The notes beneath the pieces were generated by a model. The model was given only the letters and a program-made list of their open reading frames with translations, did no database searches and had not been told where the DNA came from. The position numbers and the translations under genes are program-made. From contig NZ_NFIZ01000001.1 in assembly GCF_002159625.1 (NCBI RefSeq), positions 248,001-312,000 on the forward strand: DNA of 64,000 nt, read 5' to 3'. This DNA comes from Olsenella sp. An285. Its GTDB lineage: Bacteria > Actinomycetota > Coriobacteriia > Coriobacteriales > Atopobiaceae. Shown here in pieces: positions 24,889 to 58,911 of the stretch; positions within the stretch are counted from its first letter, which is position 1, and every line of letters begins with the position of its first letter.

Positions 24889-25931
24889 TGTCCAGCGCGT
24901 TCCTCGAGCCGCTCTACCGCTGGCTTCGGTCGGTCGCGGAGTGGTTGCTCGCAAGCTCTACCATGGGGTCGTGGGTCGGTGTCGTCGAGAGGTTTCGGAT
25001 GGTCGAGGGAATCGTGGTCGCCGCGCTGCTGCTCGTGGGCCTGGGACTCGGGGCGTTCTTCGTCTGTGTGTGCTATGCGACCGAGCTCGGGCGCCATGCT
25101 CGCTTTCTCGCGCGCCGCGAGCGCCTGAGCAACGCGCGGCTCACCTGCGGCAGCCGCCTGCCGGGGATGGTCGGCATGGTCGACGCCGTGAACGCCGAGA
25201 TCGACGCCGCCGACGCCGAGCGCGTGGAGGCCCTGCGTGCCGCAGACGAGTTCTCGCGCGGACTCTCCGCGCTCTCCCACGACGTGCGGACCCCGCTCAC
25301 CGGGGCGCGGGGCTACCTGCAGCTGGCTCGTGAGGAGTCGGACTCGGCGCGCAAGGACGAGCAGCTCGCCGCCGCCGACGCGCGCCTGGCCGCGATGTCG
25401 GGCCTTCTGGACGAGCTCTTCTCCTACGCCCGCGCCGCCGACCCCGATAGCCCACTTGAGCTGGGGCCGGTTGCGTTGAGACCCGTGCTGGAGCAGGTCC
25501 TTCTCGGCCATTACCCGGAGTTCGAGGCGCGCGGCTGGGAGCCGGAGCTTACCTGCAGGGACGTCGTCGTGACGGCCAACCGAGAGGCGCTTTCGCGCAT
25601 CGTGGAGAACCTCGTGGTGAACGCGCTGCGGCACGGCTCGGGCCCGCTTGCGGTGCACGTGCATCCCGCGGGCGAGAGGGACGGCGAGAAGAACGGCGTG
25701 GCCGTTGAGTTCTCCAACCCCGTGGCCGACCCCTCCGCCATCGACGTTGACCGCCTCTTCGAGCGCTTCTACCAGGCCGACGCCTCGCGCTCGACGGCGG
25801 GCTCGGGCCTCGGCCTCTCCGTCGCCGCCAAGCTCGCCGAGGCCCAGGGCATGACCCTCACGGCCCATCTCTCCGGCTCCACCCTCGTCTGTGAATTGGG
25901 GACAGTCCCCAATTCACAGATGGGCGGCTGA
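24885..25931 (+). CDS. Sensor histidine kinase with a repeat-derived C-terminal tail
   Basis: 348 residues from ATG 24885, overlapping the upstream stop by 4 nt. One clear membrane segment at about 42-65, no large extracellular domain, then a HisKA domain with His132 in LSHDVRTPLTGARGY. An HATPase domain follows with N-box IVENLVVNALRHGSG and G-box GSGLGLSVAAKLAEAQG. Such short intramembrane-sensing kinases usually sense cell-envelope stress or get information from a neighbouring ABC transporter. Partner: the response regulator at 21495. The last ~12 residues (CELGTVPNSQMGG) are translated from REP copy 8, so the original stop was lost or displaced by repeat insertion. Confidence 0.92.
   Translation: MMSSAFLEPLYRWLRSVAEWLLASSTMGSWVGVVERFRMVEGIVVAALLLVGLGLGAFFVCVCYATELGRHARFLARRERLSNARLTCGSRLPGMVGMVDAVNAEIDAADAERVEALRAADEFSRGLSALSHDVRTPLTGARGYLQLAREESDSARKDEQLAAADARLAAMSGLLDELFSYARAADPDSPLELGPVALRPVLEQVLLGHYPEFEARGWEPELTCRDVVVTANREALSRIVENLVVNALRHGSGPLAVHVHPAGERDGEKNGVAVEFSNPVADPSAIDVDRLFERFYQADASRSTAGSGLGLSVAAKLAEAQGMTLTAHLSGSTLVCELGTVPNSQMGG
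25888..25920. repeat. REP palindrome copy 8 (family 1), inside the kinase 3' end
   Basis: A 33-nt perfect palindrome with flanks TCTGTGA/TCACAGA. It is read in frame as the kinase tail; the TGA in its left flank is out of frame here. Confidence 0.92.
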
Positions 25932-25945
25932 CCTGACGCCCTCTC

Positions 25946-26086
25946 GAGGGTATGTACACCCAGCCCTTAGGGTATGCACACTTCCTCGAGCGCGCGTTCT
26001 TCTCGGCAACTCTTTGACCTGCAGGTTTGCTGCCCGCACTCGATGGCGGGGTGTACATACCCTCAAAGGCCGGTGTACATACCCTC
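25946..26086. repeat. Family 3 element, copy 1 (GGTATGTACA ends, TGACCTGC core)
   Basis: Two decamer-type half-sites at the left end (25949-25958 and around 25970-25980) face two at the right end (around 26051-26062 and 26072-26083). The core TTTGACCTGCAGGTTTGC is at 26013-26030 and a GTTCTTCTCG word at 25996-26005. It fills the 180-bp gap behind the histidine kinase. Confidence 0.85.
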
Positions 26087-44188: not shown

Positions 44189-44329
44189 AGGGTATGTACA
44201 GTGCGCATACCCGGTATGTACACCCGGCCACAAGGCTCGTCTCGCAAAGTTGCAGGTCAGAGCTTTGGGCGAGAACGGAGGTCGGGTCGGAGGGTGCGCA
44301 TACCCTCAGGGCGCGGTGTACATACCCTG
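44189..44329. repeat. Family 3 element, copy 2 (inverted)
   Basis: Left end with three decamers (GGTATGTACA 44191-44200, GCGCATACC, GGTATGTACA), right end with two. The core, on the minus strand, is CTGACCTGCAACTTTGC (44244-44260). It occupies nearly all of the 212-bp gap before the LytTR regulator. Confidence 0.85.
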
Positions 44330-58597: not shown

Positions 58598-58613
58598 GTC
58601 ATCCTGCGCCGGG

Positions 58614-58687
58614 GCGACCCCTGGTTCTTCTCCCCAGCTCACTGCGCTGCGCGCAGAAGTCGCTGGGCGAGAAGAACCAGGGGTCGC
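58614..58687. repeat. Family 4 hairpin behind valS, arms containing the dispersed word
   Basis: 19-bp perfect arms (58614-58632 with 58669-58687) extended by CCCAGC/GCTGGG. The arms contain GTTCTTCTC and GAGAAGAAC. The loop TCACTGCGCTGCGCGCAGAAGT resembles that of the gdhA hairpin. It begins 16 nt after the valS stop. Confidence 0.9.
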
Positions 58688-58770
58688 CGCATCTCTGCCC
58701 TCGCTCAGACTATTAGGTGGGGCATGGCGCCCTGGCGTACTTTGACCTTCCCGCCCTGCCCTGCCCTTTG

Positions 58771-58911
58771 CGGGTATGTACAGTGCGCATACCGGGTATG
58801 TGCACTTCTCGACTCGTCCGTTTTTCTCGCCCGTGCCTTTGACCTGCGGGTTTGCGAGAAGGACCTCGGGACTGACTGTACATACCAGGTATGCGCACTG
58901 TACATACCCTC
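58771..58911. repeat. Family 3 element, copy 3 (most complete)
   Basis: Three decamers at each end, alternately oriented: GGTATGTACA, GCGCATACC, GGTATGTGCA on the left; TGTACATACC, GGTATGCGCA, TGTACATACC on the right. The core TTTGACCTGCGGGTTTGC (58838-58855) runs into a CGAGAAGGAC word. Together with the valS hairpin it accounts for most of the 428-bp gap between valS and the next gene. Confidence 0.88.

Follow-up and report, generated by a model that had tools for sequence, protein, structure and literature searches.

Dispersed intergenic elements with phased iteron arms around a conserved core in one genus of the Atopobiaceae

REP and REPIN sequences consist of units in inverted pairs, the RIP elements of enterobacteria are built from regularly spaced, alternating units bound by host proteins, and Correia elements measure about 100-150 bp. 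In lambda-type attP sites, arm sites of about 10 bp flank a core under bending and phase constraints, and the end-binding sites of Tn7 and Mu lie about 22 bp apart. REP/REPIN are described as small, mainly intergenic, often downstream of genes and mobilised in trans (PMC3733652). The descriptions of BIMEs and of the Correia repeat enclosed elements of Neisseria present the former as regularly spaced units of alternating orientation to which host proteins bind (PMC2817692) and the latter as dispersed inverted repeats with a conserved core (PMC2649163).

The element described here is present in three copies in the window, that is, the whole 64,000-nucleotide stretch of the genome of Olsenella sp. 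An285 that was analysed. Its features are as follows, with > and < giving the orientation of a decamer.

58773..58908, plus strand: element copy 3 (arm, core, inverted arm), flanked by the genes for ValRS and an ABC ATPase
58773..58804, plus strand: left arm of copy 3, with iterons at 58773 (>) and 58795 (>) and an opposed middle decamer at 58784 (<)
58805..58876, plus strand: 72-bp core of copy 3, with TTTTTCTCG at 58821-58829, TTTGACCTGCGGGTTTGC at 58838-58855 and CGAGAAGG at 58855-58862
58877..58908, minus strand: right arm of copy 3, with iterons at 58877 (<) and 58899 (<) and a middle decamer at 58888 (>)
25949..26083, plus strand: element copy 1, with iterons at 25949 and 25971 (>) and at 26052 and 26074 (<), core motif at 26013-26030
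44191..44326, core on the minus strand: element copy 2, with iterons at 44191 (>), 44202 (<), 44213 (>), 44295 (<) and 44317 (<)

That these copies share one plan, as a preliminary description of the sequence had held, proved to be real, and they are members of a dispersed family whose elements measure about 136 bp. GGTATGTACA has 25 matches in the window when up to 2 mismatches are allowed, compared to 10.2 on average and 19 at most in 100 shuffles; TTTGACCTGCNGGTTTGC occurs exactly in copies 1 and 3 and with 3 mismatches in copy 2 (3 matches versus 0.08 expected), and the mean column identity of the three aligned copies is 78%. The same description had assigned three alternating decamers to each end, which is true of copy 3, with its six, but not of copy 1 (two per arm) or copy 2 (three plus two). 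Not every copy has the middle alternating decamer: in many, the 12 bases between two iterons form a CC-CCCCTTGAG-like sequence instead. It had also placed the core between TTCTCG and CGAGAA words; the core is kept (with 3 mismatches in copy 2), but the right-hand CGAGAA is absent from copy 1. Copy 1 occupies a convergent gap, where the called genes end at 25931 (plus) and 26111 (minus), and copy 2, with its core motif at 44244-44261, lies between genes for an ABC transporter and a LytTR response regulator. When the window was searched with the Rfam covariance models, only three tRNAs exceeded the gathering score, and no family matched the element.

In general, the element comprises two inverted arms of 10-bp iterons around a conserved core, TTCTTCTCG-n-ACCTGC, and its ends show a C-rich consensus followed by (T/G)GAG/GGTATGTACA. 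The distance from iteron to iteron is 21 or 22 bp in 279 of 290 cases and 31-32 bp in 6; in species with GGTTATGCGCA iterons, it is 19 bp. In a count that accepted any gap of 40-140 bp, the arms of 120 elements are separated by 79-83 bp in 97, by 91-93 bp in 22 and by 113 bp in 1. Most neighbouring iterons are thus set two helical turns from each other, the core is asymmetric and keeps its distance from one arm, and the position of the other arm shifts by steps of roughly one turn. Counted in the orientation of the core, TTCTTCTCG usually begins 16 or 17 bases past the left inner iteron, ACCTGC lies at a near-constant 36 or 37 bases past it, and the right inner iteron follows ACCTGC mostly at 29 bases (82 type) or 39 bases (92 type). 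Of 30 loci of 11 other species, counted from ACCTGC, 18 have the end of the left iteron at -37 or -38 and 17 have TTCTTCTCG at -19 to -21; the right iterons start at +26 (5 loci) or at +45 or +46 (12 loci). The remainder are decayed or were misplaced by the motif finder, and +45 may mark a second iteron in species with 19-bp spacing.

The arms carry from 1 to 8 iterons. The layout is 2+2 in 115 of 151 elements, 1+2 in 17, 2+3 in 10, 2+4 in 4, 3+3 in 3, and 2+8 and 1+3 in one each, such that 36 elements depart from 2+2 and 33 have unequal arms. Unequal numbers of iterons on one face of the helix point more to protein arrays than to a hairpin. One single element of strain An794 (L045/L366, G029:C4) has arms of eight and two iterons. 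Two near-identical sequences, L061 and L092, differ by one extra 21-bp iteron, which suggests that arms lengthen or shorten by whole units.

This anatomy can be set against the described systems. Similarly to REP/REPIN, the element is small, intergenic and located near gene ends; unlike them, it lacks a GTAG or CGTC tag in its end consensus and has arms with variable numbers of iterons, fixed helical spacing and a conserved core, and none of the stretches around RAYT genes that were read bears its repeats. It differs from BIMEs and RIP elements in that its units are 10-bp iterons, phased by the helical turn, that enclose about 34 bp of conserved core. With the Correia elements it shares the arrangement of inverted repeats on either side of a core that is conserved, whereas the sequence is another one, the arms consist of iterons, no end promoters are evident and no target duplication was seen. 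As in attP, sites of about 10 bp lie on either side of a core; however, there are many copies per genome, the boundaries are at the arms and not at the core, and integrases with a SAM-like domain are patchy in the genus (Phage_int_SAM_3 in 14 of 31 genomes, 12 of them above the cut-off). The inverted iteron arms are comparable to the terminal inverted repeats of MITEs, but a clear target-site duplication is missing. By these features, the element does not qualify as a RAYT-REP system or as a duplication-making MITE.

The family is not confined to the window, as both pattern and profile searches found copies elsewhere in the genome and across the genus. A pattern for the ends (up to 2 mismatches) has 32 matches in the 2.41-Mb window genome and 0 for the reversed control; over 60 genomes, it matches 13 of the 31 that belong to the genus and none of the remaining 29, and a whole-element pattern matches 14 of the 31. 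Some species seemed to lack the element because their iterons differ, and profile searches recover it: a profile built from 43 copies matched all 31 genomes of the genus (E up to 0.01), as did a broad profile from 33 sequences (the genus being Thermophilibacter and relatives, Atopobiaceae). Outside the genus, the broad profile gave a single weak match (E 4.2e-6) in 1 of 109 genomes representing 34 other genera of the family. One profile model, R2, includes one sequence, L033, in the wrong orientation. In the broad-profile survey, 21 candidates were scored per genome, with 2 matches each listed in G008 and G023. The copy numbers are rough: among the matches listed for the 43-copy profile, there are at least 22 places in the window genome (G000) and at least 42 in G016. 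The named carriers among the matches listed are Thermophilibacter species, 'Olsenella' strains such as An293, An290 and An794, and uncultured Atopobiaceae. Contig L092 (CASFIQ010000093.1) bears the label uncultured Collinsella, but its identity to Thermophilibacter provencensis DNA exceeds 99% at the element and its flanks; it is probably mis-binned and was hence set aside. Viral contigs contained no match to the GGTAYG whole-element pattern, the only one applied to them, and plasmids and phages held nothing matching copy 3. Searches of the literature by decamer or keyword found no account of the family, and the decamer-containing papers, among the matches listed, are unrelated.

The iterons take forms that differ from species to species (GGTATGTACA as opposed to GGTACGTACA), and several genomes have some iteron bases fixed. 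All 79 iterons of G000 have T at base 5 and all 73 iterons of An794 (G029) have C there, in a decamer scan that permitted both, although the pattern that fetched the G000 loci favoured T. At one intergenic site, the iterons are of the GGTATG form in G000, G015 and G016 and of the GGTACG form in G029 and G021. The gap type also follows the species: of the nine species counted, six have only the 82 type and three only the 92 type. Furthermore, in 30 weaker profile matches from 11 genomes, the arms consist of (GA)GGTTATGCGCA, GGGTACGTACA, GGGTATGTGCA, GGTTATGTACA and kin, and the core is usually unchanged. Thus, the iterons changed jointly over many copies in several lineages. Uniformity over whole genomes is weakened, however, by the mixed iterons at the loci read in G014, G020, G001 and G003 and by the presence of both gap types in G002 (one element of each); in G000 too, base 7 is T at a frequency of only 0.73. 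An 8-kb stretch of strain An290 (G002; L136) contains three elements, or decamer pairs that resemble them, of both gap types, and the genome is otherwise poor in the GGTATGTACA form.

Comparison of orthologous sites revealed presence, absence and exchange. At the valS-ABC site of copy 3, the element is present in G000 and G009, and the site is about 230 bp shorter in G017, G022 and G002; G013 has a version with one iteron per arm, and G006, G016, G008 and G015 have other palindromic repeats. Copy 1 is common to six species (also G015, G006, G018, G009 and, minus the first iteron, G016) and copy 2 to two, with an orthologue in G016; at the copy 2 site, other palindromes are found in G030, G012, G011 and G022, and elsewhere the gene order differs. 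More element-free orthologous sites were found in G004 and G009. At some orthologous sites, the core is that of another subfamily while the arms and flanks persist. Three copies in G029 are 94% alike within flanks that are 60-67% alike, and a pair in G006 is 96% alike within flanks of 75% and 58%, flank similarity being stated without a computed chance baseline (other listed pairs range from 0.53 to 0.83). In the G029 trio, similarity ends at, or a few bases from, the outer iterons. One of these copies (L033) occupies an old shared site; gene conversion may therefore contribute and could stand in for transposition. Because species at about 90% identity have many sites in common, movement must be slow; no movement of a copy was observed in the genomes compared, and dispersal is seen through its traces only.

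Several further repeats were encountered at these sites. Directly behind valS, at 58607-58690 of the window, lies a long hairpin, GGCGACCCCTGGTTCTTCTCCCCAGC...GCTGGGCGAGAAGAACCAGGGGTCGCC, which is kept at the compared orthologous sites with, by eye, matching changes on both sides; it has many dispersed relatives in the genus (query positions 612-689), and one of its halves resembles the element core. At the place of copy 3, G016 (L204) and G006 (L201, cut by the contig end) have another inverted repeat, CCTGGTGCCTGATTTCCG..ATATGCGTG, each side of which consists of two units; it may represent a second family built on this design. Within flanks that are 95-97% identical, G016 has an element (L113, 6334-6468) where G018 (L138) has a short palindrome with GCGCACCGTTTGC ends.

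The strongest rival that remains to a dispersing element is a fixed, selected, non-mobile site of chromosome organisation, bound by a nucleoid-associated protein, gyrase or an SMC-like factor whose specificity changes; we regard it as unlikely, yet as the most serious of the alternatives. Occurrence in all genomes of the genus, the rigid geometry and the recurrence of certain neighbour genes at element sites of up to 7 species would all be expected of such a site. So would the low divergence of the iterons, which differ between orthologues at 88 of 2000 positions compared to 692 of 4000 in the 40-bp flanks (56 pairs, 50 with the same core), although this contrast is biased because copies were detected through their iterons. 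The empty orthologous sites, the similar copies within dissimilar flanks and the two listed matches each in G008 and G023 argue against a fixed site. The first two of these observations, together with multi-copy spread and avoidance of genes, support the proposal that the sequence is a small non-autonomous dispersed element, but the target-site duplications, autonomous version and RAYT-linked arrays that would complete it were all not found in the elements and stretches read (see below).

The placement of the elements bears on two further explanations. With gene calls from a codon model retrained on GC3-rich ORFs with GC1>GC2, no midpoint of the 151 elements falls within a called gene, at a coding fraction of 0.82. 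Among the 137 classifiable elements (14 at locus edges were dropped), tandem gaps hold 74, convergent gaps 45 and divergent gaps 18, whereas the loci offer 115 gaps of each of the latter two kinds, or 70 convergent and 95 divergent ones of at least 150 bp. The convergent excess is significant for all gaps (P 9e-4), for gaps of at least 150 bp (P 4.6e-6) and by base pairs (P 3.8e-7), these P values treating orthologous copies as independent, which they are not. Typical sampled distances from the element edge are about 45 bp to a stop codon and about 117 bp to a start codon. The 45 loci that come mostly from other species include 25 tandem, 13 convergent and 6 divergent cases and one at an edge. 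For the 74 tandem elements, there is no clear tie between the direction of the core and that of the genes (34 same, 23 opposite, 17 unclear). Promoter-side placement, with some copies in genes, had been indicated by a poorly trained codon model, several of whose called genes have no Pfam match, and was reversed after retraining.

The bias to gene ends and convergent gaps would suit an element that acts in RNA, as a long transcript hairpin, a terminator or a protector of mRNA 3' ends, and six copies indeed fold singly with z-scores of -4.3 to -9.9. However, the consensus over 43 copies pairs the iterons only, with a covariation term of -0.49 kcal/mol, the departures from 2+2 and the unequal arms are ill suited to a hairpin, and the consensus outside the arms has no T-tract; an RNA-level function thus appears improbable. 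In a complementarity test, the spacer part gave z of -3.7 for the 82 type and 0.1 for the 92 type; outside the spacer, this test is confounded by shuffled partners present in both orientations.

Even less probable is a cooperative operator array for a putative transcription regulator. The preliminary description had offered a binding array as its alternative, and the anatomy, with phased sites of a cooperative type, fits one; a regulator of the adjoining promoters does not fit. Before gene starts, -10-like hexamers are found 10-19 bp outside the outer iteron in 12 cases, compared to 0-5 in other bins to 200 bp, a count made with the poorer gene calls. By the better gene calls, in contrast, divergent gaps have fewer of the elements and gene ends more, and there is neither promoter-side location nor a coherent set of targets: flanking genes are unrelated, as judged by Pfam for the window neighbours and by eye for further loci, and 257 flanking proteins (first, poorer gene calls) fall into 186 clusters. 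Promoter or operator DNA of the adjoining genes, accordingly, does not account for the copies.

The search for a mobiliser was directed at the element ends and at candidate genes. In 1372 tests over 150 elements, with words of 3-9 bases and each of the two offsets ranging from 0 to 13, no target-site duplication stands out: the best z is 4.5 (identity 0.34, compared to 0.30 when shuffled) and the lowest -4.9. No autonomous version, and no transposase gene with the same ends, was present among seven apparent orphan ends fetched from G009 and G006, all of which are whole elements with one decayed arm (six by the detector, L359 by eye). Mu-transpos_C has no match in the 31 genomes, but its control was silent too. 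Y1_Tnp genes are found in 28 of the 31, and in 70 stretches around such genes, which include some genes twice and only part of all Y1_Tnp genes, there are isolated decamers but no iteron array. RAYT as the mobiliser is not supported, since other repeats lie at the RAYT genes read and the three genomes with no Y1_Tnp match, G019, G026 and G005, have at least 6, 10 and 17 element profile matches, respectively. The window itself contains a Y1 (RAYT) transposase gene at 1496-2284 and, around 25890, many GGGGACAGTCCCC REP-like palindromes, whose words are its commonest intergenic 9-mers. The searches made yielded no candidate for a DNA-binding protein of the element.

A classical MITE with terminal inverted repeats, moved by a DDE transposase, would explain the dispersed copies and the inverted ends with iterons about 22 bp apart, as in Tn7 and Mu, but is largely refuted by the want of a clear target-site duplication; a weak terminal TG/CA (T at 0.45 at position -4), an interior of constrained length and the failure to find a transposase, among the orphan ends or by Mu-transpos_C with its silent control, make it very improbable. 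At two orthologous sites, the core is inverted against conserved flanks, and the inverted core of L154 is closest to its orthologues L121 (0.90), L160 (0.89) and L018 (0.86), followed by L115 (0.85). An inversion switch that flips the core is nevertheless scarcely credible, given that a working switch would show random orientation and only 8 of 114 comparison rows are clearly inverted, all from these two sites.

Taken together, these results are best explained, in our view and with modest confidence, by an element of the REP/REPIN/MITE kind that is small, dispersed and non-autonomous, serves as a platform for protein docking and is restricted, as far as searched, to one genus of the Atopobiaceae. 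Under this model, a DNA-binding protein encoded in trans would bind the iterons along a single helical face and fold the element, core included, into one complex. The same protein or a partner might copy or mobilise the element without making a target-site duplication. Recombination between copies could swap or invert cores and, along with co-evolution with the protein, would keep the iterons of a genome alike.

More speculatively, the element may represent a new class of chromosomal mobile elements, in which an attP-like or transpososome-like platform, with iteron arms, an asymmetric core and a geometry fixed by helical turns, occurs solely as dispersed units that measure about 110-150 bp and are copied in trans by a putative genus-specific recombinase whose specificity changed several times, with each change passing through most copies of a genome; we hold this extended proposal only tentatively and consider it doubtful. 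To our knowledge, no family unites a REP-like intergenic life, protein arrays quantised by the helical turn and iteron types that vary from species to species. The 31 genomes with their differing iterons amount to a natural experiment in which a DNA-binding protein and its dispersed sites would have changed specificity together, and the bait sequences known for several species offer a route to what may be a new recombinase or nucleoid protein.
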